NCBI RefSeq assembly: GCF_030996345.1
Contig: NZ_CP118747.1
Location: forward strand, 1,362,001 to 1,426,000
Length of the DNA: 64,000 nt
Direction of reading: 5' to 3'
Origin: Acidithiobacillus sp. AMEEHan
Lineage (GTDB): Bacteria > Pseudomonadota > Gammaproteobacteria > Acidithiobacillales > Acidithiobacillaceae
The translations under genes and the position numbers were made by a program. Of the stretch, positions 1 through 18,931 are shown piece by piece. Positions within the stretch are counted from its first letter, which is position 1, and each line of letters begins with the position of its first letter. The notes under the pieces were generated by a model, which did not search any database, was not told where the DNA came from, and saw only the letters and a program-made list of their open reading frames with translations.

Positions 1-1
1 T

Positions 2-40
2 GAGGCCAATTTGAAGGTGCTAGGGTTTGATGCCCCATAA
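2..40 (+). CDS. hsdM: HsdM C-terminal end (partial, runs off the left edge)
   Basis: The reading frame open at the left edge ends in ANLKVLGFDAP and a TAA at 38-40. The ANLK-LG ending is typical of the type I methyltransferase subunit HsdM, and hsdS and hsdR follow on the same strand. Only 12 codons are visible, so the assignment rests on this motif and on context. A second, diverged copy of the same tail ends at 1424 just before hsdS. Confidence 0.6.
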   Translation, partial: EANLKVLGFDAP

Positions 41-159: not shown

Positions 160-1332
160 ATGCAGACAAGTGAAAACAAGGAAGGCCGCGCTGGGCGCTA
201 CATCCGCCAGCCCAGTGGCTGCCGCGCCTTCATCCCCGCGCCGCTGCCGCCGCGCGACCCGCCGCTCGATCTCACCGGGGCGCTGCGTGACCAACTCTCC
301 GCCGCCGACTACGCCCTGGGCCGTCTCGATGGCGCGGTGCTCACGCTGCCCAATCCGGATCTCTTCGTCTTCATGTACGTGCGCAAGGAGGCGGTGCTCT
401 CCAGTCAGATCGAAGGCACCCAGTCCTCGCTGCAAAACCTGCTGGCCGCCGAAGCGCAGCTCTTGGACCCCGACACCCCGAAAGACGTGCATGAAGTCGC
501 CAACTACGTGCGGGCGATGAACCTGGGCCTGGCGCGCCTGAAGGAACTGCCCGTCTCGCTGCGGCTGATCCGCGAAATCCACGCCGCACTCATGCAGGGC
601 GTGCGTGGCGGGCGGCTCACCCCCGGCGAGCTGCGTACCAGCCAGAACTGGATCGGCCCTGCCGGCTGCACGCTCACCACCGCCAGCTTCGTGCCGCCGC
701 CCCCGCACGAAGTCCCGCAGGCGCTGGGCGAGTTGGAAAGGTTTCTGCATGACGGCGGCGGCCTGCCGCCCCTGGTGCAGGTGGGGCTGGCCCATGCCCA
801 GTTCGAAACCATCCACCCGTTTCTGGATGGCAACGGCCGCGTCGGGCGGCTGCTCATCACCTTCCTGCTCACCGAAAAAGGGCTGCTGTCGCGCCCCGTG
901 CTGTATCTGTCGCACCATTTCAAACGCCACCGCAGCGAATACTACGAACGGCTGCAAGCGGCGCGCGACGCGGGCGACTGGGAAGGCTGGCTTGCCTTCT
1001 TCCTGCACGGCGTGGCCGAGGTGAGCCGCGAGGCCACCCAGACCGCCGCCGCCATCCTCAAGATGCGCGAGGATTACCGCGCCCGCATCACCGAGCACCT
1101 GGGCCGCGCCGCCGCCAACGGCCAGCGCGTGATGGATCGGCTTTTCGACCACCCCATCGTCAGCGTCGCCACCGTGCGCGACTGGCTGGGCCTCACCCCC
1201 GCCGGTGCCAACCAGATCGTCGCCCGGCTGGAGGGCATCGGCCTGCTGCGCGAGATCACCGGCTACGCCCGCAACCGGCGCTTTCGCTTCGAGCCGTATC
1301 TGCGGCTGTTCGAGGAGGATGGGCAGGGATGA
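160..1332 (+). CDS. Fic family protein with C-terminal winged helix
   Basis: A 390-aa Fic protein, expected to transfer AMP or another nucleotide to a target hydroxyl group. The Fic motif HPFLDGNGRVGR is complete at about residues 219-230, including the catalytic His219. An N-terminal inhibitory motif, SSQIEG at about 81-86, matches the class II autoinhibition helix (S/T-x-x-x-E-G). The last 80 residues look like a winged helix and may bind DNA. It sits between the hsdM tail and hsdS, where Fic genes are often found in type I restriction operons. The ATG has a GAGG about 20 bases upstream, so the ribosome binding site is weak. A regulatory role in the restriction operon is inference. Confidence 0.9.
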   Translation: MQTSENKEGRAGRYIRQPSGCRAFIPAPLPPRDPPLDLTGALRDQLSAADYALGRLDGAVLTLPNPDLFVFMYVRKEAVLSSQIEGTQSSLQNLLAAEAQLLDPDTPKDVHEVANYVRAMNLGLARLKELPVSLRLIREIHAALMQGVRGGRLTPGELRTSQNWIGPAGCTLTTASFVPPPPHEVPQALGELERFLHDGGGLPPLVQVGLAHAQFETIHPFLDGNGRVGRLLITFLLTEKGLLSRPVLYLSHHFKRHRSEYYERLQAARDAGDWEGWLAFFLHGVAEVSREATQTAAAILKMREDYRARITEHLGRAAANGQRVMDRLFDHPIVSVATVRDWLGLTPAGANQIVARLEGIGLLREITGYARNRRFRFEPYLRLFEEDGQG

Positions 1333-1334
1333 GA

Positions 1335-1424
1335 ATGTCGGTTTTGGCGGGATGGCAGCGGTGGGCGGGACGGTTGGAGGCGGCGATCGGAGCCAATCTG
1401 AAGGAGCTGGGGTATGGCGGGTGA
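1335..1424 (+). pseudogene. Second HsdM C-terminal tail (29-codon remnant)
   Basis: A short frame starts at ATG 1335, two bases after the fic stop, and ends ANLKELGYGG followed by TGA at 1422-1424. The ending is the standard HsdM C-terminus and resembles the tail that ends at 40. The hsdS ATG (1414) lies inside it, so the normal HsdM-HsdS overlap is kept although the rest of the methyltransferase is absent here. The best reading is that fic entered the hsdM/hsdS junction and left a duplicated tail, or that two hsdM lineages recombined. It may be translated only to couple hsdS. Confidence 0.7.
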
Positions 1425-2691
1425 GTGGCGCACGACTTCGCTGGGTGATCTGACCGTTAACCACGATGGCAAGCGCAAGCCAGTAAAAGAATCAGACAGG
1501 CGACCCGGGCCTTATCCATATTACGGAGCCTCTGGGATTGTTGATTATGTGGACGGCTACCTGTTCGATGGCGACTACTTGTTGATTGCTGAAGATGGCG
1601 AGAATTTGCGCACTCGACAAACGCCTATTGCTTTCATGGCGTGTGGAAAATCGTGGGTCAACAATCACGCGCACATTGTTACGGGTAACGAGAAAGCGGA
1701 CACCAGATTTCTGATGTACGCCATTCAGGGGTCTGACATCAGCGGCTATCTCACCGGCGCTGTGATGCCGAAGTTAACGCAAGGCAATCTCAACAAAATT
1801 GAACTTGAATGCCCACCCATCGAAGAGCAACGCGCCATCGCCCATATCCTTGGCACGCTGGACGACAAGATCGAACTCAACCGCAAGCAGAACGAAACGC
1901 TGGAGGCGATGGCCCGCGCCTTGTTCAAGTCGTGGTTCGTGGACTTTGACCCCGTGCGCGCCAAGATGGAGGGCCGCGACCCCGGCCTGCCCAAGCCCCT
2001 CGCCGACCTCTTCCCCGCCCGCCTCATCGACTCCGAACTCGGCGAGATTCCGGAGGGGTGGGAGGTCAAGGCCTTCGCGGAAACTGTGGAGATCATTGGT
2101 GGCGGGACACCGAAGACATCCGTTGCCGAGTATTGGAACGGCGATGTCCCATGGTTCTCGGTCGCCGATGCCCCACCGCCGTCAGATGTCTGGACATTGG
2201 ACACTGAGAAGAAGATTACCCACGCCGGGGTCGAGAACTCATCGGCGCGGGTTCTTCCGGTCGGCACAACGATCATCTCCGCACGCGGGACAGTTGGCCG
2301 CGTTGCACTTGTGGGCGTTCCCATGACGATGAACCAGTCCTGCTACGGCTTGCGAGGGAAGCTGGGCGATCGCGGCTTCTTCAACTACTTCGCAACGCGT
2401 CAGCTGGTCTCGATTCTTCAGCAACGGACGCATGGCTCCGTATTCGACACAATCACTCGTGACACCCTCGCGGGAGTCCAAGTCGTAGCGCCTTCCCACG
2501 CTGTGATCAAAGCGTTTGAAGCACTCGTCAGCCCGATGCTAGATCGTATTCGCGAGGCTCTTGCCGAATCCCGCACCCTCGCCGCTCTGCGCGACACGCT
2601 GCTGCCCAAGCTCATCTCCGGCGAGCTACGCGTTGGGGCTGCCCAGCTAGAAAAGCAGAATTCACTGAAAACTGTTTTCTCTCACCCATGA
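1414..2691 (+). CDS. hsdS: Type I restriction-modification specificity subunit HsdS
   Basis: A 425-aa DNA-recognition subunit of a type I restriction-modification complex. It shows two target-recognition half-domains. The first (about 5-140) ends in the conserved segment EEQRAIAHILGTLDDKIELN. The second (about 210-390) follows the central helix with FKSWFVDFDPVRAKMEGRDPG and ends in LRDTLLPKLISGELRV. The start lies inside the HsdM-tail remnant (10-bp overlap), which implies translational coupling. Its TGA (2689-2691) overlaps the ATG of the Argonaute gene as ATGA. The partner hsdM is mostly outside the window, and hsdR follows 7 kb downstream. Confidence 0.93.
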   Translation: MAGEWRTTSLGDLTVNHDGKRKPVKESDRRPGPYPYYGASGIVDYVDGYLFDGDYLLIAEDGENLRTRQTPIAFMACGKSWVNNHAHIVTGNEKADTRFLMYAIQGSDISGYLTGAVMPKLTQGNLNKIELECPPIEEQRAIAHILGTLDDKIELNRKQNETLEAMARALFKSWFVDFDPVRAKMEGRDPGLPKPLADLFPARLIDSELGEIPEGWEVKAFAETVEIIGGGTPKTSVAEYWNGDVPWFSVADAPPPSDVWTLDTEKKITHAGVENSSARVLPVGTTIISARGTVGRVALVGVPMTMNQSCYGLRGKLGDRGFFNYFATRQLVSILQQRTHGSVFDTITRDTLAGVQVVAPSHAVIKAFEALVSPMLDRIREALAESRTLAALRDTLLPKLISGELRVGAAQLEKQNSLKTVFSHP

Positions 2692-4895
2692 GAGGACGAA
2701 CCTTGCCGGTATTTCTGAACGCATTCCCACTGATAGTTCCCGAGCTAGAGCTCGAAGCTTGCCAGATCCCCTACGACAAAGGGGTTCTGGACGAACTTCG
2801 CGCGAAGCACGGATCGACTCATGCGTTTCGCAGACAAGGCAATAGCATCCTAATTTTCTCGGGAAATGGCACGTTCCCCGTGCTTGGAACGCCGCAGGCG
2901 ATCGCGCTCAAAGACAATTTCGGCATCTTCTGCTCGCTGGTCAAGGACGGGCTGACGCGGCACTTTGTGGGGCTGGGTCGCAATCCCTCCGGCTTCAACC
3001 CTATCGAGTTGGTGAGCGCCCGGCCTGAAGACAATCTTCTCGTTCCCATACTTGGCGATGCTTACCCCTTCAAGGTCTGCGCCAAATACTCCATCGACAC
3101 GCGCACCATTCTAGGCAAACCGTGCCTTGTCATTGATTGCACAACGCGCAGGGTGGTCAAAGAGAATGGCCTGTTCTTCCTGAACGACGGGTTCGAACTC
3201 ACGGGCCGTTACGTGGTCACGCAGCAGGCGGACGGATGCAGAAGACTCCTGGGATCGGTGAATGGCCGCAAAGGCGAAACGCTCTCCATCACGCGGCCAG
3301 ACGGCCAGGTGGTTCAGGCCGAGGCGAAAGACGTTTATTTGGAGGCCAGCCGTGAGAACTTCGATGCCTACATTCTGCACACGCACGGCGCGGAAAAGGA
3401 TTCCATTGTCGAGGATATCCGGCAATCCGTCTCTATCTTCAATGGCGGCGAGAAAAAGAAAGCGCGCATCGACACCCTCAAGAAGTACATCCAGTCGAAG
3501 AGCATCACGTTGATCGACGGCACGCGCATCGAAATCAAGGATTCGCCCGATATCCAGAAGGATTGCGGGCAGATACCAAAGCCGGTGTTTGTCTTCAACG
3601 ACAACGGCGAAGCGGATTGGGCCGAGAGGGGTCTGACACAGTACGGCCCTTATACAAAGCGCACGTTTGACCGAAACGATCCGTCGATCTGCGTCATCTG
3701 CGCCCAGCATGACAAGGGCCGCGTCGAACAGTTCGTCCGCAAGCTCCTCAAAGGCATTACGAATAGCCGGTACTTCAGCAACGGGCTTGAAGGCAAGTTC
3801 ACGCTTGGCACCAGCCGCGTTGAAGTCTTCGCGACCGCCACCGACAGCGTGGAGGCATACAAGAATGCCATTGAGGCCGCGATCCGGAAGAAGGCAGATG
3901 ACAGCGGGCGATGGGACTTGGCCCTCGTGCAGGTCCGACAGTCTTTCAAGAAGCTCAGGGTCACGGAGAATCCGTACTATTTGGGCAAGAGCCTCTTCTT
4001 CCTGCATCAAGTTCCGGTGCAGGATTTCACCATCGAGCTTCTGGCGCAGTCCGATTACTCACTCGGCTACTCGCTCAACAACATGGCGCTTGCCTGCTAC
4101 GCCAAGATGGGCGGCGTTCCGTGGCTGCTCAAGTCCTCGCCGACGCTTTCCCATGAACTCGTAATCGGGATCGGTAGCGCCAATATCGGGCAGGAGCGCG
4201 GCGCGAACGATCAGCGGATTATGGGCATCACCACCGTCTTCTCCGGGGACGGTAGCTATATCGTCTCGAACACATCGAAGGCCGTCGTGCCGGAGGCGTA
4301 CTGCGAGGCTTTGACTTCCGTTCTTGCTGAAACCATCGAGAAGATTCAGAAGCGCATGAACTGGCAGAAAGGCGACACGATCCGCCTGATCTTTCATGCG
4401 CAGGTCAAGAAGTTCAACAAGGAAGAGATCGAAGCTGTCCGCGCCGTGATCGACAAGTACCGAGAATATCAGATCGAATACGCCTTCCTGAAAATCTCGG
4501 AAGATCACGGGCTGCATATGTTCGACTCCGCGACAGCGGGCGTGCAGAAGGGAAAACTGGCGCCGCAGCGAGGGAAGACCTTCAAGCTCTCCAAGCATGA
4601 AATGCTGATCTATCTGATCGGGCAGCGCGAGCTACGCCAGGACACGGACGGGCATCCGCGCGGCGTGATCCTCGATGTTCACAAGGACTCAACCTTCAAG
4701 GACATCAAGTATCTGAGCGCGCAGCTCTACAGTTTCGCCTCGCACTCCTGGCGTAGCTACTTCCCCAATCCCATGCCGGTGACGATCAGCTATTCCGACT
4801 TGATCGCCCGGAATCTCGGATGGCTGAACCAGCTTCCGCGCTGGAACGACTCGGTGATGATCGGGAAGATCGGGCAATCCCAATGGTTCCTGTAG
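2688..4895 (+). CDS. Long prokaryotic Argonaute with degraded PIWI active site
   Basis: A 735-aa protein with the layout of a long prokaryotic Argonaute: N-terminal and PAZ-like region (1-300), MID (about 320-470) and PIWI (about 480-735). The MID part carries a Y-x-x-x-K motif near NPYYLGK followed by a Gln, as expected for guide 5'-end binding. The PIWI first strand reads VIGIG, with Gly496 where active enzymes have Asp. The later H-x-D position reads HAQ (Gln572), so the DEDX tetrad appears broken and slicing is unlikely. The protein ends in SQWFL, typical of these families. The ATG overlaps the hsdS stop and the nuclease gene overlaps its 3' end by 13 bp. Long-B Argonautes of this kind use guides to trigger a partner effector. 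That role is inferred here from family knowledge and gene order. Confidence 0.85.
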   Translation: MRGRTLPVFLNAFPLIVPELELEACQIPYDKGVLDELRAKHGSTHAFRRQGNSILIFSGNGTFPVLGTPQAIALKDNFGIFCSLVKDGLTRHFVGLGRNPSGFNPIELVSARPEDNLLVPILGDAYPFKVCAKYSIDTRTILGKPCLVIDCTTRRVVKENGLFFLNDGFELTGRYVVTQQADGCRRLLGSVNGRKGETLSITRPDGQVVQAEAKDVYLEASRENFDAYILHTHGAEKDSIVEDIRQSVSIFNGGEKKKARIDTLKKYIQSKSITLIDGTRIEIKDSPDIQKDCGQIPKPVFVFNDNGEADWAERGLTQYGPYTKRTFDRNDPSICVICAQHDKGRVEQFVRKLLKGITNSRYFSNGLEGKFTLGTSRVEVFATATDSVEAYKNAIEAAIRKKADDSGRWDLALVQVRQSFKKLRVTENPYYLGKSLFFLHQVPVQDFTIELLAQSDYSLGYSLNNMALACYAKMGGVPWLLKSSPTLSHELVIGIGSANIGQERGANDQRIMGITTVFSGDGSYIVSNTSKAVVPEAYCEALTSVLAETIEKIQKRMNWQKGDTIRLIFHAQVKKFNKEEIEAVRAVIDKYREYQIEYAFLKISEDHGLHMFDSATAGVQKGKLAPQRGKTFKLSKHEMLIYLIGQRELRQDTDGHPRGVILDVHKDSTFKDIKYLSAQLYSFASHSWRSYFPNPMPVTISYSDLIARNLGWLNQLPRWNDSVMIGKIGQSQWFL

Positions 4896-6055
4896 AGAAG
4901 GACAATGCATACGCGCTGCGCGAATATCTGCACCGCAAGGTGATCGAGAGCGCGCACGCCGATCCATTCAAATCCTCCTTCCTGCATTTCCTGGGATTGT
5001 CGAAGGATGGCCTTCCGTCCTTCGACTTCGCGGCGCTCTCCTTGTATCAGCGGTGCGCGATTGCGGGTCTCGGTGTTTTGGACGAAACAGTTTCAAGCCA
5101 GGATGTCTCGCGCTTGCTCGGGCAGGCTGCCAAGATCGACTCCACGCCGCGCCCGTGGGTCTCCGACATGTTCGGCGTCATGGCCGTGAAGTGGCTAGTT
5201 GCGCAGATGAACGAAGCGCGGATCGCCCGCGAGTTCGAGAATTGGAGTTCAGAGTTCTTGGCGCAGCAGATTAGCGGCGACCATCTCAATCTCTTTGAGA
5301 AAGATATCGCGGCGTATGTCCTCAGCGGCGACTCCGCCGTCTATGCGAGCGCGTGCGTACCGCTTTTCCTTCACTACAGGAGGCTACGGCGGATCGAGGA
5401 TCACCAAAGCCGCATGTCCCTGATCGGACGCTTCATGGTTGAGTTCCGGGCGCAGGCGCAAGGGGACGCATCGACAGCGCTCTTAAGCCTGATGGTTCAC
5501 GTCTTCGATCAGGTCAATCAGGACTTGGCTATCGTGCCGCCGAAGGGCTGGAGCCTCGACGACCTTCTGGGATTTCTGGAGCATATCCCTGTCGGCCTCA
5601 AGCGGTGGACATGGGAAGATTCGGGCCGCACACGAGGCGCAGAACCCGCGAAGTGGCCCGTGGAAAACGAATACCACGTCCAGAACCTTCTCTATGTCCT
5701 GCTCGGGCCGATCTTCAACGACATCGCGGACGAAGTGAACCTCCAGCCTGTCGGGCAGAAGAATCCGCGCATTGATCTTTACCTGCCGTCGCTGCACACG
5801 GTCATCGAGGTCAAATACCGGAAGGACGTAAAGAAGTCCTTCCCGACGCTCATTGGGGAGATCGCCGAGGACGCCTCCCTCTATCGCGCCGACGCGAAAT
5901 ACAAGGATGCGCGGATTGTCAGTTTCCTGTGGGATTGCACGCGGGCAACGGAGGAACACACGAAGTTCAAGGAAGGTGTTTTGAAGATAGAGGGGATAAA
6001 TGGCTGTGTCGTGGTTAGCGCTCCCTCAACGATGAACCAGGGAGAGAACACATGA
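4883..6055 (+). CDS. Argonaute-associated PD-(D/E)XK nuclease (effector candidate)
   Basis: A 390-aa protein whose last third has a PD-(D/E)XK nuclease signature: Asp298 in RIDLYL, then Glu309 and Lys311 in VIEVKYRK. The first 280 residues are helical and unrecognised. The start chosen is ATG 4883, which overlaps the Argonaute stop by 13 bp. An upstream ATG at 4820 is possible but lies deep inside the Argonaute frame. The overlap argues for co-translation and a stable pair. Catalytically dead long Argonautes encoded with a nuclease are known to kill or arrest infected cells by degrading DNA. The same role is plausible here but not shown. An alternative is an independent type II-like restriction enzyme. 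Confidence 0.8.
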   Translation: MVPVEKDNAYALREYLHRKVIESAHADPFKSSFLHFLGLSKDGLPSFDFAALSLYQRCAIAGLGVLDETVSSQDVSRLLGQAAKIDSTPRPWVSDMFGVMAVKWLVAQMNEARIAREFENWSSEFLAQQISGDHLNLFEKDIAAYVLSGDSAVYASACVPLFLHYRRLRRIEDHQSRMSLIGRFMVEFRAQAQGDASTALLSLMVHVFDQVNQDLAIVPPKGWSLDDLLGFLEHIPVGLKRWTWEDSGRTRGAEPAKWPVENEYHVQNLLYVLLGPIFNDIADEVNLQPVGQKNPRIDLYLPSLHTVIEVKYRKDVKKSFPTLIGEIAEDASLYRADAKYKDARIVSFLWDCTRATEEHTKFKEGVLKIEGINGCVVVSAPSTMNQGENT

Positions 6056-6104: not shown

Positions 6105-6190
6105 ATGCGTACATTCTCAGAGCCTGTCGTCGAACACGCCGCTCTCGCGTGGCTGGAAGCGTGCGGCTGCGCAATCGGACATGGTTCCGC
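6105..6190 (+). pseudogene. HsdR-like N-terminal stub
   Basis: From ATG 6105 the frame reads MRTFSEPVVEHAALAWLEA and continues for about 28 codons like the start of an HsdR subunit (F-S-E-x-x-V-E-x-A-A-L-x-W-L). After that the similarity stops and the frame runs on with no family features. It belongs to a different HsdR lineage from the intact hsdR at 9703. The surrounding 6056-6336 holds no other gene. It contains a small inverted repeat around AGCTT/AAGCT at about 6085-6100. Confidence 0.6.
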
Positions 6191-6305
6191 GAGCTCCAGT
6201 GGCCGTGAGTCGAATTGGCATTCAGCCGCCGCCCATACTCGTATTCAGCCGACTGCCGCCTCTCGGCGCAGGGCGACGCGCAGCCCGGCACGCCTCCTTG
6301 TGTTA

Positions 6306-6341
6306 CTCATGGCATTGAGTAAAAATACTCAGTGTCATGAG
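6306..6341. promoter_or_regulatory. Palindrome over the start codon of the DUF4143 ATPase gene
   Basis: Two 16-base arms, 6306-6321 and 6326-6341, are inverted repeats with 14 of 16 positions paired by eye and a four-base spacer (core TGAGTA/TACTCA). The right arm covers the ATG at 6337-6339. The symmetry and position fit an autoregulatory operator, or an RNA hairpin that hides the start. As I recall, similar palindromes precede other DUF4143 genes, but this was not checked. Confidence 0.55.
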
Positions 6342-7548
6342 CACTTCACGTTCGCCCTACCGCCGTCCGCAGGCGGCCGAACTGGCCCGCCGGCTCGCCG
6401 AAGCGCGGCGCTTCATTCAGGTGGTGGCCGGGCCGCGGCAGGTGGGCAAGTCCACGCTGGTGCAACAGGTCGCCGAAGACCTCGCCGCCGCTGTGCGCTA
6501 CGCCAGCGCGGACGAGCCGACGCTGCGCGGGACGGAGTGGATCGCGCAGCAGTGGGAGGCGGCGCGCCTGGCCGCGGGTCAAGCCGGCAAGGCGGGTGCA
6601 GTGCTCGTGCTCGACGAGATCCAGAAGATCCCCGGCTGGTCTGAGACGGTCAAGCGCCAGTGGGACGAGGACACGCGCCGGCGCGTGCTGCTCAAGGTGG
6701 TGCTGCTGGGATCGGCGCCGCTGCTGATCGCGCGCGGTATGAGCGAGAGCCTGGCGGGCCGCTTCGAGCTGCTGCACCTGCCGCACTGGTCGTTTGCCGA
6801 GATGCGCGCGGCGTTCGGCTTCGGGCTGGAGGAATTCCTGTACTTCGGCGGCTATCCGGGTGCAGCACCCTCGATCGGCGAGCCTGTACGCTGGCGCCGC
6901 TACATCGCCGACAGCCTGATCGAAACCTCGGTCTCGCGCGACGTGCTGCTGCTTGCGCGCGTGGACAAGCCGGCGCTGCTGCGGCGGCTGTTCGATCTCG
7001 CCTGCCGCTACTCGGGGCAGATCCTGTCGTACACGAAGATGCTGGGGCAGCTCCAGGATGCCGGCAACACGACCACGCTCGCGCACTATCTCGACCTGCT
7101 CGCGGGCGCGGGACTGGTCGTCGGCCTGCAGAAGGTCGCGGGTGACGTTGCCCGCAGCCGCGGGTCGAGCCCCAAGCTGCAGGTGCTGAACACGGCCCTC
7201 CTGAGCGCGACGAGCGGCCTCTCTTTCGATGAGGCGCGAGGCGATCGGGAGTTCTGGGGGCGGCTCGTCGAGTCGGCCGTCGGCGCGCATCTGGCCAACG
7301 CCGCCGCGGCCGGCGATTGCGCGCTCTACTACTGGCGCGAGCGCAACCGCGAAGTGGACTTCGTCGTGAAGACGGGACGCCGGCTTGTCGCCATCGAAGT
7401 CAAGAGCGGCCGCGTGCGGGAAATGCCGGCGGGCATGGCCGCCTTCGCCGAAGCGTTCAGGCCGAAGCGCACGCTGCTGGTCGGCGGCGACGGCATCGCG
7501 CTCGATGAGTTCCTCGCGCAGCCGGTCGCGCACTGGGTCGAGGGATGA
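6337..7548 (+). CDS. DUF4143-family ATPase (AAA_14 plus C-terminal nuclease-like domain)
   Basis: A 403-aa protein with an AAA_14 ATPase domain: Walker A GPRQVGKST at 32-40, Walker B VLVLDEIQ near 89-96, and an arginine-containing LAGRFE segment near 141. The C-terminal DUF4143 part has REVDFVV followed by AIEVKSG, the D and ExK pieces of a PD-(D/E)XK fold. Such proteins are common in genomic islands, and their biochemical role is largely unknown. It is preceded by a strong palindrome over its ATG. Its stop overlaps the ATG of an HsdR-like stub (7545) as ATGA, as if it had been inserted exactly in front of an hsdR start. A defence or toxin-antitoxin role is only suggested by context. Confidence 0.88.
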   Translation: MSTSRSPYRRPQAAELARRLAEARRFIQVVAGPRQVGKSTLVQQVAEDLAAAVRYASADEPTLRGTEWIAQQWEAARLAAGQAGKAGAVLVLDEIQKIPGWSETVKRQWDEDTRRRVLLKVVLLGSAPLLIARGMSESLAGRFELLHLPHWSFAEMRAAFGFGLEEFLYFGGYPGAAPSIGEPVRWRRYIADSLIETSVSRDVLLLARVDKPALLRRLFDLACRYSGQILSYTKMLGQLQDAGNTTTLAHYLDLLAGAGLVVGLQKVAGDVARSRGSSPKLQVLNTALLSATSGLSFDEARGDREFWGRLVESAVGAHLANAAAAGDCALYYWRERNREVDFVVKTGRRLVAIEVKSGRVREMPAGMAAFAEAFRPKRTLLVGGDGIALDEFLAQPVAHWVEG

Positions 7549-7590
7549 GCGCCTTTGCCGAATCCACCGTCGAAGAAGCCGCACTTGTCT
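7545..7590 (+). pseudogene. Second HsdR-like N-terminal stub
   Basis: The frame from ATG 7545 begins MSAFAESTVEEAAL, again the conserved opening of an HsdR subunit, and loses the pattern after about 15 codons. The ATG overlaps the stop of the DUF4143 gene. With the stub at 6105 and the intact hsdR at 9703, this makes three HsdR beginnings in 3.6 kb. Confidence 0.55.
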
Positions 7591-7676
7591 TGCAGGGAAC
7601 AAGTGTCCCGCGGGCCGCGTATGGCACCGAACCCGACGGCGCATCGCACCGGCGTGCGCATGGCGCAGTAGTTGCA

Positions 7677-7822
7677 AAATTTTCACATACTGCGGCCAAC
7701 GGTTACCGCGCTTCGAGAAAAACGCTGCCGAGCTGGAAGCGGCGCTGGCGCTGGTGCGCAAATCTGAGGCAAACTCGGCTGACGGCCAGCCGCTCGAGGC
7801 GATTTGGGGAGTAAATGGATGA
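7677..7822 (+). pseudogene. Unidentified gene tail before the AAA ATPase gene
   Basis: A frame with protein-like composition, including LPRFEKNAAELEAALALVRK, runs to a TGA at 7820-7822 that overlaps the next ATG. It has no matching 5' part. It looks like the C-terminal remnant of a lost gene. I do not recognise the family, and it may be noise. Confidence 0.3.
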
Positions 7823-9024
7823 GCGAGACACCTACGCCACCGCGTATCGAGAGCTTGCGTGTGAGAAATTTCCGCGCACTACAAGATGTTCGCTTGGAGC
7901 GCCTCACGCCGCTGACGGTGTTGTTGGGGCCCAATGGCAGCGGCAAATCTACGGTATTCGATGTCTTTGCGTTTTTGGCTGAGTGCTTCAGCGATGGCTT
8001 GCGCAAAGCATGGGATCGGCGTGGGCGATTTCGCGAGCTGCGCAGCCGTGATCGGGATGGCCCCATCGTGATTGAACTGCAATACCGCGAGCGCCCCGGC
8101 ACGCCGCTCATCACATACCACCTGGAAATCCAGGAGCAGGCCAGAGGGCCTGTGGTTTCGCGCGAATTTTTGCGTTGGAAGCGCGGGCATCCGGCAGCAC
8201 CTTTTCATTTCCTCGACTACCGCTACGGCGAGGGTGAGGTCATCACCGGCGAGATGCCTGAGGCCAGTGACAAGCGCGTCGACAAGCGCCTCTCCGGCCC
8301 GGACGTGTTGGCCGTGAACACCTTGGGCACCTTGGCTGAAAACCCGCGCGTGATTGCGCTGCGTAACTTCATCACCGGCTGGCACCTGTCGTATCTCTCG
8401 GCAGACGCCGCGCGCGGCAATCCGGAGGCTGGAGCCGAGGAGCGCCTTTCACCGACGGGCGATAACCTGCCCAACGTGATTCAGTATCTGCGCGAGCAGC
8501 ACCCTGAGCGCCTGGAACAGATCTTCGAGACGCTGCGGCGGCGCATCCCCCGAATCGAAAAAGTCGAAGCCCAGGTTTTGGAAGACAGCCGCTTGCTGCT
8601 TTTGGTCAAGGATGCACCGTTTTCCAAGCCGGTGCTGTCCCGTTTTGCCTCCGACGGCACGCTGAAGCTGCTGGCCTATCTGACCGTTCTCTACGACCCC
8701 GACCCGCCTCGACTCGTGGGCATCGAGGAGCCGGAAAACTACCTCCATCCGCGCCTGCTGCCGGAGCTGGCCGAGGAGTGCCAGCAGGCGGCGGATCGCA
8801 CGCAACTGATCGTCACCACCCATTCGCCCTTCTTCATCAACCCCCTGCGACCGGAAGAGGTGCGAGTGCTGTACCGCGCCGCCGATGGATATACCCGTGT
8901 GCGCCGGGTGGCCGACATGCCGGGGATACAGCACTTCATCCGGCAGGGAGCGACGCTTGGGGAGCTTTGGATGGAAGGGCATTTCGACGCCGGTGATCCG
9001 CTTGCAATGGGGGATGAGGCGTGA
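7819..9024 (+). CDS. OLD-like / AAA_21-type ATPase
   Basis: A 401-aa ABC-type ATPase of the SMC/OLD kind. Walker [10 protein letters not shown] is at 37-45. The signature-like [11 protein letters not shown] lies near 278, and the Walker B segment [10 protein letters not shown] at 302-311 is followed by an H-loop VTTHSPFF. It has no C-terminal TOPRIM nuclease domain. Start ATG 7819 was chosen because a GGGGAG lies 7 bases upstream. A TTG at 7804 is the alternative. Its stop overlaps the next gene as GTGA. ATPases of this type pair with nucleases or TOPRIM-like partners in phage defence (OLD, PARIS-like systems). The DUF4276 neighbour probably fills that place. Confidence 0.85.
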
Positions 9025-9635
9025 CGCAGATCGAGTTTCTGGTCGAAGAGCCTTCGGCAGAAGAAGCGCTTCGGCATGTGCTGCCGAAGCTGTTGCGTGG
9101 CCGTGCGCGATGGAAGCTGATCAATCTGGGGAGCAAACACAAGCTGCTCAAGGCACTGCCGGGCCGACTTGCAGCATACCGTGATCGCATCGACCGGGGC
9201 GAGCCGTTGCGCGTGGTCGTACTGGTAGACCAGGACAGCGACGATTGCGCGTCGCTCAAGCGCCAGCTCGAAGACATGGCGAGGACGGCGGGACTCGCAA
9301 CCAAGACCCACCCCGACGCCCAAAAACACTTCCACGTCGTCAACCGCATCGCAGTCGAGGAGTTGGAATCTTGGTTTATCGGTGACGCTGCGGCTCTACG
9401 TCAGGCGTTTAGCAGCCTGCCTACGGTCGATGTCGGCAAAGGCATTTTCCGCAATCCCGACAATGGCGGCTCCTGGGAAGCATTGCACCGCTTCCTCAAA
9501 AAGCACGGCATTTACAAGAGCAGTTATCCAAAAATCGACGCTGCGCGGCGCATCGCTCCCAAACTCGATCTGCAAGCCAACCGCTCGCGTAGCTTTCAGG
9601 TCTTCGTTCAAGGTGTGGAGGCATTGTTGACATGA
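9021..9635 (+). CDS. DUF4276 family protein, likely partner of the AAA ATPase
   Basis: A 204-aa protein starting at GTG 9021 inside the ATPase stop, so the two are translationally coupled. An N-terminal F-L-V-E-E-P-S opening, a central [11 protein letters not shown] segment and an [10 protein letters not shown] motif fit the DUF4276 family, which has a TOPRIM-like acidic arrangement. Together with the ATPase it resembles a split OLD-type defence module, with the motor and the nuclease-like part on separate chains. Nuclease activity is inference. No metal-binding role has been shown from sequence alone. Confidence 0.78.
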
Positions 9636-9702
9636 CCTGCTGCTTTGATGAACGCGCGTTGGTTCTCCTCTTTGCCGCCGCTGCGGAACGAGAAGAACCG
9701 TA

Positions 9703-12700
9703 ATGGCGTTTCTGTCGGAGGCCGCCGTGGAGCAAGCACTGCTGGAACAGCTTGCCGCGCTGGGCTACCAGATCGAACGAGAGGAGGACATCGGCCCCGA
9801 TGGGCACCGCCCGGAGCGCGAGAGTCACGATGAGGTCGTGCTCAAAAAACGGTTCGAGGACGCCGTCGCGCGCCTGAACCCCGGCCTTCCGTTGGAGGCA
9901 CGTCAAGATGCAATTCGGAAGTTGACGCAGTCCGAACTGCCGTCATTGCTCGAAGAAAACCGCCGCCTCCACAAGCTGATGACCGAAGGCGTGGATGTTG
10001 AGTACTATGCCGACGATGGCACCTTGACGGCGGGCAAGGTCGCGCTCATCGACTTCGAACACCCGGAGCAGAACGATTGGTTGGCGGTGAGCCAGTTCGT
10101 CGTGATCAACGGCCAGAATAACCGGCGCCCCGATGTGGTGGTGTTCGTGAACGGCTTGCCGCTGGGCGTGATCGAGCTGAAAGCGCCGGGGAGTGCGGGA
10201 GCGCATCTCGTGGCCGCATTCAACCAGTTGCAGACCTACAAGAAGCAGATTCCAGCGCTGTTCCACACCAACGCGCTGCTGGTCACCTCGGATGGCATTG
10301 CCGCCCGGGTGGGTTCGCTCTCGGCAGACCTCGAGCGCTTCATGCCATGGCGCACCACCGACGGCGAGGACATTGCCCCGAAAGGTGCGCCGGAACTTTC
10401 GACACTGATTGAAGGCGTATTCGAGCATCGCCGCCTACTCGATCTGCTGCGCGATTTCACGGTGTTCGGCGACACGGGCTCTGGTCTCATCAAGATCATC
10501 GCGGGCTACCACCAATTTCACGCGGTGCGGCACGCAGTGGCATCCACGATTCGCGCTTCTAGCCCTGTGCAAGGTGTGGCCGAAAACCCAACCGACTACG
10601 GTTTGCCGAGTGTGAAGACGCAAAGCCAGGGTGACAAGCGCGCGGGCGTCATCTGGCACACCCAAGGCTCCGGCAAAAGCCTGCTGATGGCGTTCTACGC
10701 AGGTCTTCTGGTCAAACACCCGGCCATGGCCAACCCGACGCTGGTGGTGCTGACCGACCGCAACGACCTCGACGATCAGCTCTTCTCGACCTTCACGATG
10801 TGTCGCGACCTGATCCGGCAGACGCCGGTGCAGGCCGAGAGCCGCGACGATCTGCAAAAGGTCTTGAGCCGGGCATCGGGCGGCGTGATTTTCACGACCT
10901 TGCAGAAATTCGGCGAGATCGCGGAGCCGCTCACCACGCGCCGCAATGTGGTGGTTATCGCGGATGAGGCACACCGCAGTCAGTACGGCTTCAAGGCCAA
11001 GGTGGACGTGAAAACCGGCGAAATCTCCTACGGCTTCGCCAAGTACATGCGTGATGCGTTGCCGAACGCATCCTTCATCGGCTTTACCGGCACGCCCATT
11101 GAGGCGGACGATGTGAACACACCGGCGGTGTTCGGCAACTACATCGATGTCTACGACATCAGCCGGGCTGTCGAGGATGGCGCGACCGTGCCGATCTACT
11201 ACGAGTCGCGGCTGGCGCGCATCGAACTCGACGAGGAGGCGAAGCCGAAGATCGACGCCGAGGTCGAGGAGATTCTAGAGGACGAGGAGGAGCCCTCGCG
11301 CGAGCGTGCCAAGCAGAAGTGGGCCACGGTAGAGGCACTGGTCGGTAGCAACAAGCGTCTGGCGCAGGTGGCAGCCGACATCGTGCAGCACTTCGAGGCC
11401 CGTTTGGCAGCACTGGATGGCAAGGCGATGATCGTCTGCATGAGCCGCCGCATCTGCGTGAAGCTCTACGATGAGATCGTCAAGCTACGCCCAGAGTGGC
11501 ACAGCGACGATGACAACGCGGGTGCGGTCAAGATCGTGATGACGGGCGCGGTAAGCGACCCGCAGGAATGGCAGCAGCACATCGGCAACAAGGCCCGGCG
11601 TGATCTGCTGGCCAAGCGTGCCCGCGATCCCAAAGACCCGCTCAAGCTGGTGATCGTGCGGGATATGTGGCTGACCGGCTTTGACGCGCCGTGTATGCAC
11701 ACCATGTACGTGGACAAGCCAATGCGCGGACACGGGCTGATGCAGGCCATTGCACGCGTGAACCGTGTGTTCCGTGATAAGCCTGCGGGGCTAATCGTGG
11801 ACTACATCGGCATTGCGCAAAACCTGAAATCGGCGCTGCAGCAGTACTCCAAAAACGACCAAGAAAACACTGGCGTTGACGAAACGCAGGCCATCGCGGT
11901 CATGATGGAGAAATACGAAGTCGTACGGGACATGTACCACGGCTTTGACTACGCATCGGCAATGAGCGGCACGCCGCAACAGCGCCTAGCGATGATGGCG
12001 GGGGCCATCGAATGGATTCTCGACCTGCAACAGAAGCTGGCAGCGGAAGAGAAAACCCAGGACGGCAAGAAGAGCGCTCACCGCCGGTACCAGGACGCCG
12101 TGCTGGCCTTGTCCAAGGCGTTCGCCCTGGCGTCCGCCTCCGACGAGGCCCGCGAAATCCGGGAAGAAGTCGGTTTTTTTCAGGCGATCCGCGCCGCGCT
12201 GGTCAAGAGCGCTACGGCTTCTGGCGTAACCCAGCAAGAACGCGAGTTGGCTATTCAGCAAATCGTCAGCCGCGCGGTGGTCTCGACCGAGATCGTGGAC
12301 ATTCTGGCTGCAGCGGGCATCAAGAGCCCGGACATCTCCATCCTATCCGATGAGTTTCTGGCTGAACTCCAGCACATCGAGAAGAAGAACCTAGCGCTGG
12401 AAGCTTTGCGCAAGCTGATCAACGACGGCATTCGCTCGCGCAGCAAGGCCAACGTGGTGCAGACCAAGGCCTTCTCGGAGCGATTGGAGGACGCAGTAGC
12501 GCGCTACCACGCCAACGCGATCACTACCGCCGAGGTGCTGCAGGAGCTGATCGAGCTGGCCAAGGATATCCGTGCAGCGTGCCAGCGTGGCGAAGAATCC
12601 GGGCTGTCAGACGAAGAGATCGCCTTCTACGACGCCTTGGCCGAGAACGAAAGCGCGGTGCAGGTGATGGGTGACGACAAGCTCCGTGTGATTGCCCACG

Positions 12701-12906
12701 AACTGCTGATAGGCCTGCGCGAGAACGTGTCGGTTGACTGGGCACACCGTGACTCGGCTCGCGCCAGGATGCGCGTGCTGGTCAAGCGCATCCTGCGGAA
12801 GTACGGCTATCCGCCTGATCTTCAGGACACTGCCGTACAAACCGTGTTGCAGCAAGCCGAGGCGTTGTCGTCTGGGTGGTCGGTGTCGCGTGGAGGGTCG
12901 CTCTGA
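9703..12906 (+). CDS. hsdR: Type I restriction enzyme R subunit HsdR
   Basis: A full-length 1067-aa ATP-dependent translocase and nuclease of the type I system. The N-terminal nuclease site has Asp144 (RRPDVVVF) and Glu158/Lys160 (VIELKAP). The helicase motor shows Walker A in WHTQGSGKS near 318-326, DEAH at 421-424, the motif III-like GFTGTP near 466, and a late motif [12 protein letters not shown]. The C-terminal part includes the helical region that docks on the methyltransferase. It is separated from hsdS by about 7 kb of Argonaute, ATPase and OLD-like genes, an unusual gap for this operon. The start has a GAAGAACCGTA leader with only a weak ribosome binding site. Confidence 0.95.
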
Positions 12907-12907
12907 C

Positions 12908-12982
12908 ATGGCTAATCGGGAAGTAGATCTGTTCGTTAAGGATTTTTTAAAGGAAATCCGTGAAGCCCTTAAATACCGATGA
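12908..12982 (+). pseudogene. SIR2-like N-terminal stub
   Basis: Starting 2 bases after the hsdR stop, the frame reads MANREVDLFVKDFLKEIRE and then ends early at TGA 12980-12982. This opening matches what I recall for the N-terminus of SIR2-family defence proteins, which normally continue into an AAIFAGAG NAD-binding motif. That motif is missing here. The gene therefore appears deleted after about 20 codons. Confidence 0.45.
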
Positions 12983-13052: not shown

Positions 13053-13331
13053 GTGTAGTGGACGCCGTTGTTTTAGAAATACATGCCTCTGAACTATTTT
13101 CAGCAGAAGCTCCTTGTATGCGAATAGAGTTGGAGGGTTGAAGATGAAGGCGGAAGCGGTGAATCTGGTGCAGTGGCGGGAGCGCTTTGGTACAGAGGCG
13201 GCCTGCATGGAAGCGCTGAAGCCGCAGCGCTGGCTAAACTGCTTCCGGTGCCCGATATGTGGGCATGACCACTTGAGGAGGGCGGTGCAACGTTGCTAGA
13301 ATCGGAAAATCTCCGTGCCCAGTACACCTTT
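13050..13331 (+). mobile_element. Internally deleted IS1595-like element (MITE-like)
   Basis: Imperfect inverted ends can be seen around 13050-13066 (AGGTGTAGTGGAC) and 13313-13331 (complement of AGGTGTACTGGGC). They enclose about 280 bp. Inside are the first 51 codons of an IS1595-type transposase and nothing of its catalytic part. No clear target duplication was seen. The exact ends are uncertain. Confidence 0.45.
13144..13299 (+). pseudogene. Truncated IS1595-family transposase
   Basis: A 51-aa remnant from ATG 13144. It has the typical start of IS1595/ISXO2-like transposases: a W-R-E-R-F-G-T-E segment, then the first half of a zinc ribbon (C-F-R-C-P-I-C-G). The second cysteine pair and the whole DDE domain are missing. 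The frame could begin at 13114, but 13144 has a GGAGG-like site about 10 bases upstream. Confidence 0.65.
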
Positions 13332-13683: not shown

Positions 13684-16024
13684 GTGCTCGGTTTGTCGTG
13701 TAATCCAGTGGTGCCCGAGGCGGCAGACGCCGCTTTTCCCTTGGTCGAATCCTTGTGTCTGCTTGGCGAGCGCATCGTTCCTGGAGCGCTGGCGACGGTG
13801 ATGCTTCTGGGATTGGAAGGGGAACTTCGATTGTACGCGGGACCCAGTCTCCCCGAAGGACTGCGGGAGCGCTTCGACGGCTTGCGCGTGATCGAAGGCA
13901 ACGGCTCCTGTGTCAGCGCCGTTCTGAGCGGTGAGAAAGTTTTGGTGCACAACGCAACCGAGGACGAGCGTTGGCTGCGGCTACGCGAACTTGCCCATTC
14001 GTTACAGATCCGCGCCTGCTGGTCGGCACCGATTCGGGATCCTCTTGGCCAGGCAGTTGGCAGCTTTGCACTCACCAGTTTTCGGGTGGGTACGCCGACA
14101 CCAGAGCAGGAGAGATTGCTGGAGGGAATTGCTGCAGTAGTCGCGCAAATCCTCTTCCAGACCCCAGTAGACGGACGTGATCGTAGCTTTGCCGCGGCAT
14201 TGCGTTCGATCAGTGAGGGCGTATTGCTGACGGATGCAGAGCAAAACATTCTGTATTTCAACAACGCATTTGCGCAGATGACGGGCTACGGTCTGGCCGA
14301 ATTGATCGGCAAGAATTGCCGCATATTACAGGGGCCCAAGACCTCAGCCGAAACCATTGCGCGTATACGCCAGCACCTGGATGCAGGGCAGTCTTACAGC
14401 GGAGAAATTCTCAATTATCGCAAAGATGGCAGTTCCTTCTGGAACCAACTGTCGATCAATCCAATACGCGACCATCAGGGGCAGGTGGTTCAGTTTGTGA
14501 GTGTGCAGCGGGATGTCAGCGTGGAGCGCCAGCAGCGCGAGGCGCTGCGCCTTTCCGCGCAAGTATTCGAGGCCCAGGAAGGCATCATGATCACTGATGC
14601 GCAACAGCGCATCGTGCGCGTGAACCAGGCATTTACGCGGCTGACCGGTTATGCCGAAAGCGATGTTTTGGGACTGACGCCGCAGATTCTGCACTCCGGG
14701 TTGCAGAACGGCAATTTCTATGAGCTGATGTGGGAAAAGCTGCAGCGGGATGGCGAGTGGCGAGGAGAAATCTGGAATCGTCGCAAAAATGGTGAATTGC
14801 TCCCCGAATTTCTCCAGATTCGAGCGGTACGTGACAATGCGGGAGAAGTAACCAACTATATTGGCTATTTCCATGATCTTACCCACCAGAAAGCACGTGA
14901 GGCGGAGCTGGAGAAAATGGCGCTGCACGATCCGTTGACCGGCCTGATGAACCGACGTGGGCTGGAAGAGGAATTACCCCGAGCGCGCGCCCGGGCAGAT
15001 CGCAGTGAACGCCTCTTGGCCTTGGTCGTGCTCGATCTGGACGACTTCAAGGAAGTCAACGATCGCATCGGACACGACCTGGGTGACGCCATGTTGCAGC
15101 GGCTCGCGCAGCGTTTGCAGGATTCGTTGCGGCACTCGGATTGCGTTGTCCGAATCGGTGGTGACGAGTTTATCCTGCTGCTCGAAGGGTTGCGCGATAT
15201 TGACCAGCTCGAGAGTGTGTTGCGCAAGGTCAATCTTGCGGTGGAAAAACCATTGGTTCTGGAATCAGGTGAGCAGATTCATCTTCAGGTGAGCATGGGA
15301 GTGAGTATTTACCCACTCTCTGCCAACAGTAACCTCGAGCTGCTGCTGCGAGAAGCCGACCAGGCGATGTTCGAATCCAAACGGAACAAGGGAATTCGGA
15401 ATGCACCGTGGGCATTCTGGAGCGCGGACGAAAGCGTCCAGAGCTTGTATCCGCTGCGGATGCTCTTTCGTGCCGGCGGGCTGCGAAGCTGGTACCAGCC
15501 GATTTGGGATCAACGACGTAAACAGATCGTTGGCTTGGAGGCACTGGCGCGCTTGGTGGACGAGGACGGCAAGGTCTGGGGGCCGGGTGACTTCCTGGGT
15601 CAGCTTACCGAAAGAGATGTCTTTTGTTTGACAGAGCAGATGCTGCGACAGGCGATCGTCGATTTGCAGGCCCTCGAGCGAGAGGGACGGGTATACTGGG
15701 TATCGGTCAACATCGATCCGCGGGTACTGGGTACTGCCTGCATGGGGGCGATAAAAAAGATTGTCGATGATTTCCGCGTCGATCCCGCGCGAATCACTTT
15801 GGAGATTTTGGAAAGTCACGACTTCATCGACCGCCAGATAGCGATGGATCACCTCCTCGATTTGAAGGTGATGGGTTTTCGCCTGGCGCTGGATGATATT
15901 GGCAGTGGATATTCTTCCCTCTTGCGTCTGAAAGAGTTGCCGGTCGATAAGGCAAAGCTGGATCAGGGCTTTGTGCGTTGTCTGGAGGATCGCCCCCAGG
16001 ATCTGCGTTTTGTGCAGTCGGTCT
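13684..16024 (+). pseudogene. GAF-PAS-PAS-GGDEF-EAL protein, 5' part (cut by IS66)
   Basis: The first 780 codons of a signalling protein that makes or degrades cyclic di-GMP. In order: GAF (about 20-160), PAS (170-280), PAS (290-400), GGDEF with an intact GGDEF at 492-496, and EAL starting near 590 with EAL at 619-621 and DDIGSGYSS near 737. The IS66 element enters the EAL domain after VQSV. The frame then runs 47 bases into the IS to a stop at 16071. Removing the IS and one target copy restores one 949-aa reading frame with the segment at 18423-18931. The diguanylate cyclase half could still be made. The EAL half lacks its last conserved blocks. GTG 13684 is the only plausible start after the in-frame stop at 13663, with GGAG 9 bases upstream. 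Confidence 0.88.
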
Positions 16025-16049
16025 GTAACCGGTCTCCCCGCGGCGTTCT

Positions 16050-18027: not shown

Positions 18028-18363
18028 TCAGCCGCGGCGAATGGTAAGGGTGCAGCCGGCGCCCAAGTCCAGACGAATCTCCAAGGAAGAAATCCCTGTC
18101 TCCCGCTCGCTTGGCAATCCCAGCTTCAGGAACTCGGGCAAGGGGGCAACGCTGGAAGATGCCGCCGTCTTTTGGCTGGCCCCACCCCGCAGCCGCTGCC
18201 GCCAGTAGTAAAATTGCGAAAGAACCAGACCCTGCCCTTGGCAAAACTGCGGCGTTGACAGCCCGCTGGTCTCTTGTGCCGTCACCATCTCCTGCCAATA
18301 CCGCGTCTTTTCTTCCGAGCTGCGCATGATCTTACTTCTCCAAGCGTCCCAAGGAGCCATCAT
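18028..18363 (-). CDS. tnpA: IS66 accessory protein TnpA
   Basis: A 111-aa IS66 Orf1 protein with a helix-turn-helix-like region: YWQEMVTAQETSGLST, then FCQGQGLVLSQFYYWRQRL. The true start may be the internal ATG at 18327 (MRSSEEKTRYW), giving 99 aa. It is the first gene of the IS. Confidence 0.88.
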   Translation of the reverse strand: MMAPWDAWRSKIMRSSEEKTRYWQEMVTAQETSGLSTPQFCQGQGLVLSQFYYWRQRLRGGASQKTAASSSVAPLPEFLKLGLPSERETGISSLEIRLDLGAGCTLTIRRG

Positions 18364-18422
18364 GCTGGCAACACAATACCCTCAACGAAAGAACGCCGCG
18401 GAGCGATCGCTTACGTCGGTCT

Positions 18423-18931
18423 TGGGCTTGACCAAGGGTTTGCACATCGATCTCGTGGCCGAAGGGGTGGAAAGTGATGCGATTCGCGATGCCTTGATGG
18501 AGATGGGGGTACGGTATTTTCAGGGGTATGCCATCGCTCGTCCGATGCCGATGCCTATATTGCAGGAGTTTCTGGATCGAAGCCTGCAGGATAGGGGCAG
18601 TATTCCAGCAAGTTTTCTGGGGCTATACGCTCAGCACATCTCTCATTTCGATATTCTCGAAAAGACGCTGGGGCTGCATCCCGAAATCGTTGATTTCCAG
18701 GCAATGGCGAACGCGCACGCCTGTCCCGAGGAGCGTCGACTGGAACAGTTGGGGCTTGCTCCGGATGCCACGTTGATGACTTTGCACCAAGAGTATCATG
18801 CCTTGATTGGCTGTTTGCGGACAGAAAATGGAAGAGTGCGAGATGCCGACTGGGCGGCCGTGGAGGACTGCCATCGGCGTTTCTCTACGGCCCTGCTCGA
18901 CGCTGTCTGCTTGCATGCACAACCGGCCTGA
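18423..18931 (+). pseudogene. GGDEF-EAL protein, 3' part (after IS66)
   Basis: The last 169 codons of the interrupted gene. It begins LGLTKGLHIDLVAEGVES, the EAL block with the VAEGVE motif, and continues with YFQGYAIARPMP, the end of the EAL domain. About 110 helical residues of unknown family follow. It joins the 5' part in frame when the IS and one GTCGGTCT copy are removed. It has no start signal of its own. Confidence 0.88.

Follow-up and report, generated by a model that had tools for sequence, protein, structure and literature searches.

Gene starts without bodies as candidate recombination scars in a type I restriction operon of Acidithiobacillus sp. AMEEHan

The stretch analysed here, referred to as the window, comprises 64,000 nucleotides (nt) of Acidithiobacillus sp. 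AMEEHan (contig NZ_CP118747.1, positions 1,362,001 to 1,426,000; positions below are counted from the first letter of the window, and its features lie on the plus strand unless stated otherwise). It contains a type I restriction operon in which short hsdR starts, lacking the rest of the gene, stand between embedded defence genes. We propose, with a probability of about 0.6, that both of these hsdR stubs were left behind as scars when the operon underwent one-sided recombination in successive events. Its genes run in the order hsdM, Fic, hsdS, prokaryotic Argonaute (pAgo) with Aga, stub 1, DUF4143, stub 2, a piece of RhuM, HEC-01A/B and hsdR. Profile libraries and the upstream DNA show hsdM, hsdS and hsdR all present, stop-free and on one strand, and the complete non-hsd genes (cargo) between hsdS and hsdR are pAgo, Aga, DUF4143 and HEC-01A/B.

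Stub 1 starts with an ATG at 6105, 49 nt past the stop codon of Aga, and reads MRTFSEPVVEHAALAWLEACGCAIGHG before similarity is lost; its 27 initial hsdR codons span 6105..6185. Stub 2 starts with an ATG at 7545, overlaps the DUF4143 stop codon by 4 nt and reads MSAFAESTVEEAAL before it departs from the HsdR family (14 codons, 7545..7586). In both, HsdR-family N-terminal sequence sits at an in-frame start codon, and nuclease, helicase and C-terminal HsdR domains were not found in the two open reading frames (ORFs) with Pfam, NCBIfam and PADLOC. The whole ORFs, of 179 codons for stub 1 and 89 for stub 2, give no match in these three libraries at E ≤ 1, as expected because just 27 and 14 residues are related. 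A longer version of stub 1 (to 6296; tblastn E 4e-4) was rejected, because its part beyond about codon 27 scores no better than shuffled DNA (p 0.4). Among 88 intact cargo/hsdR joins, the 4-nt overlap seen at stub 2 is more frequent than any other single spacing (23 joins, with gaps of more than 100 nt in 24).

The original prediction of HsdR-like starts without bodies at 6105 and 7545 hinged on profile similarity, which is absent from the whole-ORF library searches and emerges in searches fit for 14–27 residues. A profile of the first 34 HsdR residues, built from 48 related sequences with the window excluded and run against the six-frame translation of the window, returns the intact hsdR at 5.6e-15, stub 1 at 4.9e-5 and stub 2 at 0.052, with the next match at 1.1. 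A subfamily profile of five sequences chosen for resembling the stubs (L075, L146, L099, L070 and L076), run against the same translation, has the two predicted starts, of about 27 and 14 codons, as its top two matches (5.4e-11 and 1.6e-4), followed by the window's own hsdR at 9e-4 and the next match at 0.71; among 1416 ATG-started 15-mers on both strands, stub 2 ranks first and stub 1 second with this profile. The intact hsdR of the window ranks just 26 and 10 of 125 in likeness to stubs 1 and 2, which score 83 and 51 with the other subfamily versus 36 and 29 with the resident hsdR. On these sequence grounds, stubs 1 and 2 are remnants of hsdR alleles, namely their true 5′ ends, and the alleles resembled another subfamily more than they did the intact gene, with stub 2 appearing to derive from a second hsdR of the same foreign subfamily as stub 1.

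We surveyed hsdS–hsdR gaps in other genomes and searched three partly overlapping sets, of 115 relatives, 369 genomes from the class and 398 from the phylum. Loci, numbered L in hsdR-forward orientation, were chosen from the matches by the presence of an hsdR N-terminus and available upstream DNA, and the sample is neither random nor exhaustive. From 13 stretches, six were used in the comparison alongside that of the window, L052 is without an hsdR start and the others were not entered; L139 was dropped from 86 loci tested and L179 from 40. The resulting 125 loci, window included, comprise 109 with an upstream hsdS match, of which 94 have a gap of at least 60 nt (201 kb); the gaps of L182 and L097 are counted as first set, from the later hsdS piece, and the stubs of L170 and L182 stand outside the gap counts. 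The gap is shorter than 200 nt in 18 of the 109 loci and at least 400 nt long in 91, and that of the window, at 7011 nt, is the longest among the 109.

When 118 hsdR proteins were cut into 60-residue tiles (about 18 each) and searched against the 94 gaps, with E values uncorrected for the number of queries, eight hsdR-like matches were obtained at E ≤ 1e-6. Six of these correspond to residues 1–60: two in L054 and one each in L123 (which runs into the next tile and is counted once), L142, L161 and stub 1 of the window. The remaining two are residues 66–99 in L045 and a near-C-terminal tile in L158, the latter lying where a complete FRG-domain cargo gene ends. For six of eight matches to fall in one of 17 tiles, the binomial p is about 1e-6 if the matches are independent, with the tile picked post hoc. 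Tiles of 91 hsdM proteins gave no match in the gaps at E ≤ 1e-3. The stubs range from 14 to about 120 codons, and these varied lengths argue against a fixed site. Beyond the counted gaps, L170 carries hsdR residues 1–28 after a RhuM piece, and an ORF in L182 is hsdR-start-like over its first 12 or so residues, the best of 417 ATG starts there with stub 1 among the references.

Several other candidates were set aside. A weak hsdR-like region in the L045 gap (2433-2489, E 8e-3) was taken as chance, the hsdS tail motif was met elsewhere in the gaps just in L164, where it likely belongs to that locus's own hsdS, and downstream matches in L044, L083, L100, L102, L108 and L124 were attributed to the remainder of the interrupted or cut hsdR of each locus and left uncounted. 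RhuM is the commonest window-related cargo family in the compared gaps, often as the last gene before hsdR; gaps bearing it include L045, L054, L070, L075, L083, L104, L122 and L164. The FRG-domain protein of L158 (L158:10893-12200) holds a copy of the HsdR C-terminal domain (PF11867, E 5e-13), with weaker matches in a cargo gene of L071 (L071:6926-8086) and an FRG protein of L050 (L050:7449-8723), and cargo with this domain may be able to dock on the methylase complex as HsdR does.

The stubs elsewhere indicate what such starts once were. We compared each stub with the complete hsdR of the same locus for nonsynonymous (dN) and synonymous (dS) divergence, and the dN/dS pairs are 0.17/1.14 and 0.12/1.19 for the two L054 stubs, 0.11/0.63 for L123 and 0.20/0.87 for L161. 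In these four stubs dS is 4–10 times dN; they are remnants of working alleles that diverged in other lineages and, because dS lies far above dN, they are not decayed copies of the present hsdR.

Comparison of related loci, as the original prediction had suggested, finds such joins unbroken in L143 and L129. The order in L143 is hsdS, one cargo gene, hsdR; in L142, hsdS is followed by a cargo related to that of L143 (42% over 255 residues), a stub of about 24 codons, a second cargo and hsdR. The cargo/hsdR join of L143 and the cargo/stub join of L142 are alike at 84% over 122 nt. In L129 hsdS overlaps hsdR by 8 nt, and in L123 hsdS has the identical overlap with a stub of about 120 codons, which is followed by two DarT-type ORFs, a macro-domain ORF and then hsdR. 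L143 and L129 may show what a pre-event state looked like. The identity, position and recurrence of the stubs, purifying selection in the four stubs elsewhere and the unbroken joins in these two loci are established.

Behind several of the stubs lies part of another gene. In L182 an hsdS tail (profile E 3e-12) follows the hsdR-like start, succeeded by an internally deleted RhuM, HEC-01A/B and hsdR. The L161 stub continues in frame into an hsdS-like tail (SGEL motif, by eye) whose stop codon overlaps the next cargo; a blastx search with this short piece gave no match, and its joint with the hsdR start appears, by eye, to have a few shared letters at most. In L045 the hsdR piece is followed by the end of an AlbA_2 protein (E 6e-4, 52% over 21 residues, with AlbA_2 recognised in its relatives). 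Stub 2 of the window has an internal RhuM piece behind it (7709..7780; 71% over 24 residues, equivalent to residues 124-147 of 330 in L054), and behind the remaining stubs no gene part was recognised. As a whole, L182:5708-15946 is a near parallel of the window, with a Fic gene 83% identical, hsdS, two cargo genes, the hsdS tail, RhuM, HEC-01A/B and hsdR.

By analogy with these loci, we infer an entry route, an order of events and a one-sided origin for both window stubs. Donor DNA carrying part of an upstream gene, a cargo and hsdR, in that order, would enter the cell. A homologous crossover would occur inside hsdR or beyond it, hsdR being the long stretch common to donor and resident, and the left end of the donor, having no partner, would be joined illegitimately near the resident hsdR start. 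The 5′ end of the resident hsdR would then remain as a stub after the older cargo, with the donor gene part behind it, and the new cargo would come to lie before a complete, partly new hsdR. A breakpoint close to the start would keep most of the resident hsdR available as the homologous arm, which would account for the shortness of the stubs. Repetition would stack the cargo by arrival, with pAgo/Aga as the oldest (pAgo at 2688..4895, PADLOC pAgo_II), followed by DUF4143 (6337..7548; DUF4143/AAA_14 ATPase, PADLOC PDC-S01, G+C content about 70%) and then HEC-01A/B as the youngest (HEC-01A at 7804..9024, an AAA ATPase recognised by PADLOC with a probable start at ATG 7819; HEC-01B, DUF4276, at 9021..9635 by profile matches). 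Each hsdR stub would mark the former position of hsdR behind the cargo it adjoins, and cargo would accordingly be added and not swapped. The idea that the stubs record earlier occupants survives with an older hsdR allele, not a cargo, as the lost occupant of the hsdR stubs; likewise, of the predicted swapping of cargo at gene starts and ends, the gene tails at joins elsewhere (L182, L161 and L045) remain, but swapping gives way to stacking.

A comparable process is known from natural transformation as homology-facilitated illegitimate recombination, in which one donor end joins by homology and the other without it; the predicted product is a 5′ piece of the resident gene fused to an internal or end portion of a donor gene. 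The window case differs in being read from operon scars, not from an observed event.

The third gene start has a different history. Stub 3 comprises the 19 initial codons of a SIR2(-STALD) gene at 12908..12965, 1 nt past the hsdR stop codon, and reads MANREVDLFVKDFLKEIRE, sharing 14 of its 19 residues with the SIR2 start of L066. In L066 the hsdR, 88% identical to that of the window, is followed by an intact ORF of 486 codons that has SIR2_2 and STALD domains; the hsdR end and the stub 3 start align with L066 at 81% over 116 nt, and similarity ends at 12965. Stub 3 thus has the start sequence and the place after hsdR of its intact relative. It is without SIR2 and STALD domains, its reading frame stopping after 24 codons, and downstream come unrelated sequence and a repeated-element relic (13081..13272, 84% to another site in the same genome). 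The predicted SIR2-like start at 12908 is therefore real, matching the intact SIR2-STALD gene of L066, and all three stubs adjoin complete genes as proposed (49 nt after, a 4-nt overlap and 1 nt after). A single process for all three does not hold, as the SIR2 stub lies after hsdR, in place of a former downstream gene. By its sequence, stub 3 is a separate truncation, a resident gene after hsdR cut off after 19 codons, and it is no evidence for stacking because it marks the loss of a gene after hsdR.

The intact hsdR (9703..12906, 1067 amino acids) appears to be a mosaic by site comparison, with a switch near 11490. Up to this point 57% of 345 sites are L044-like; after it the share is 27% of 241, and the gene is nearer L066. 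None of 2000 permutations of the 586 sites was as extreme, in a test that ignores linkage between sites. The left neighbours of hsdR are L044-like, and its right neighbour (SIR2) is L066-like. Because L044 has the order hsdS tail, intact RhuM, HEC-01A, HEC-01B, hsdR, the last module of the window looks like the right part of an L044-type operon cut inside RhuM. A HEC-01A/B pair also occurs in L047:7458-9586 with no hsd gene recognised around it and an hsdS-like tail (LLPKLISGELRI) in front, as if lifted from a restriction operon.

A number of observations weigh against one-sided recombination or narrow its support. For the window species, neither a donor nor a pre-event strain came to light, and both window events are for this reason placed by analogy; the dN/dS figures, likewise, come from stubs elsewhere, and among those the L142 stub (0.19/0.29 over 22 codons) gives no sign of purifying selection. 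Stub 2 is identified from 14 residues and its position, and scores just 5e-3 in the tile search, where matches from 1e-6 to 1e-2, stub 2 among them, scatter across many tiles and both strands. The support from gap length, stub-bearing gaps being longer than the 85 other cargo-bearing gaps (median 4382 versus 1808 nt, p 0.003), is weakened by the room that longer gaps give to any match. L096 has a 71-residue hsdR start downstream of an intact hsdR (1825-2076 from the hsdR end), and L079 has an hsdR tail of 81 residues before hsdM. In Escherichia coli 21335 (H70; L191:7668-9171) an IS3-type element interrupts the hsdR start, with the first 87 nt of hsdR before the element and everything from nt 80 onwards behind it; insertion is thus another means of producing a 5′ piece, although that locus has no second complete hsdR start downstream. 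Upstream of DUF4143 lies a region belonging to the same unit (6296..6336, the left limit of the unit), common at 83% over 36 nt to L007, where no hsd gene was recognised; DUF4143 could thus have arrived without hsdR, against which the overlap of its stop codon with the stub speaks. In the mosaic comparison, the left part of the window hsdR is just mildly L044-like, and L044 and L066 serve as stand-ins for the parents. The L044 hsdR is interrupted near its end, although the result holds without that block, and an L044/L045 comparison places another switch near 10401, which points to a more complex history. As to L096, its fragment sits behind a transposase-like ORF and a broken RhuM, and the one-sided model does not explain it.

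Among the other explanations, the one that survives best, which we nevertheless regard as unlikely, is that tandem cargo–hsdR units came first and that the inner hsdR copies were then deleted from near their starts to the next cargo. This would yield an identical final order with 5′ stubs, and the RhuM piece and truncated SIR2 gene show that deletions have occurred here. However, 3′ and middle pieces of hsdR would be expected, and at E ≤ 1e-6 there are none but residues 66–99 in L045 and the FRG gene end in L158; furthermore, the hsdS tails joined to hsdR-like starts in L161 and L182 would require extra deletions of hsdM and hsdS. It is improbable that the stubs are kept as short leader peptides coupling translation between cargos, a role compatible with one-sided recombination. 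The overlap between stub 2 and the DUF4143 stop codon fits such coupling, as does the end of the L161 stub ORF, which overlaps the next cargo start by 4 nt, but the 179-codon ORF of stub 1 extends far into DUF4143 in another frame, stub lengths differ, and the L123 stub and one L054 stub contain stops.

Two further alternatives are very improbable and already contradicted by the data. Duplication in place of the hsdR start now present, with neutral decay afterwards, would account for stubs that are non-coding past a short similarity and for the two stop codons in the L123 stub; it is contradicted by the subfamily mismatch, the window stubs scoring higher with another HsdR subfamily, and by dS far exceeding dN in four stubs elsewhere. 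A site-specific mobile element at the hsdR 5′ end that brings a replacement start, as some islands at gene ends do, would suit the strong 5′ matches, which fall in the first eighth of hsdR, and is contradicted by breakpoints scattered from codon 14 to about 120. Among the scanned window ORFs between hsdS and hsdR, no integrase or recombinase was recognised, and the varying breakpoints further set the operon apart from an integrase-borne island at a gene end. Chance likeness of short ORFs to HsdR and SIR2, for which the negative whole-ORF searches of stubs 1 and 2 might speak, is hardly credible and already contradicted by significant short profiles, exact start register and the DNA-level match of the SIR2 join.

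If one-sided recombination recurs at such loci, it is possible, and we put this forward tentatively and at less than even odds, that type I restriction operons accumulate defences in the manner of a ratchet, with imports anchored in hsdR as a long sequence common to such operons, an hsdR start left behind at each import, each new module placed directly before a renewed hsdR, and the row of stubs kept as a time-ordered record with the oldest nearest hsdS. Were this true, the stub row of a single genome would suffice to establish in what order defence systems arrived, and the location of embedded defences between hsdS and hsdR would be explained. The hsdR start scars would identify hsdR as the anchor, place the illegitimate joint on the left, close to the start of hsdR, and give the order of arrival; they predict a donor gene part behind each stub and would offer a sequence marker for past imports in other genomes.

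Variable extra genes inside hsd loci are familiar from the rlo genes (restriction-linked ORFs) of Campylobacter. In published work, PrrC is embedded in the EcoprrI restriction operon (PMC3874165, PMC12707154), and a 2025 paper (PMC12255303) places DarTG2 in the hsdS–hsdR gap of E. coli E2348/69 and describes this gap as a potential recombination hotspot; the guilt-by-embedding candidates PDC and HEC are attributed to a preprint cited in PMC12255303 and PMC12988326. The window operon is like these embedded-defence hsd operons in having complete defence or toxin genes inside, often between hsdS and hsdR, and HEC-01 and PDC-S01 are represented here. Unlike the operons described in the accessible portions of those sources, the window has three successive cargo modules, and an hsdR start stands behind every one of them. 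The embedding of defence genes in type I operons is already known; the hsdR start scars appear to be the new part, and in the accessible text of the open-licence literature searched we found no mechanism of cargo entry and no such scars.

We also searched 5426 E. coli genomes. The L123 hsdR query gave no match, and the L127 and L171 queries gave partial matches only, in 53/5426 and 848/5426 genomes. Three 250-nt queries covering E. coli hsdR 5′ ends gave matches in 125, 53 and 316 of the 5426 genomes, at 131, 57 and 318 places, and among the 75 records listed two have two places: H70, described above, and H30, where no second hsdR start lies within 12 kb. Additionally, E. coli strains B27 and PSJ-22 differ in a DUF4268 cargo before hsdR, absent in the former and present in the latter, with hsdR 88.6% identical and one hsdR start each by the query used; clean exchange of cargo may also happen.

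The remaining features complete the locus. The window opens with the end of hsdM (1..40), whose body upstream is L043:18381-19940 with N6_Mtase and HsdM_N domains. A Fic gene of the SoFic type, identified by profile matches, occupies the hsdM/hsdS interval (160..1332), and hsdS follows at 1414..2691 (Methylase_S profile). The pAgo partner Aga (4820..6055) shows a Helical-REase of DpnII-MboI fold by profiles, and in 11 other loci found with the pAgo/Aga pair no hsd gene was recognised beside it. A direct repeat at 2315/6018 was considered as a possible hsdS duplicate and set aside, being just 83% over 23 nt. Further downstream, 13684-16071 and 18326-18931 appear to be the parts of one gene, which we take to be of GGDEF/EAL type, split by an IS66-type transposase region (16050-17645, minus strand) that is accompanied by 27-nt inverted arms at 16025-16051 and 18388-18414.

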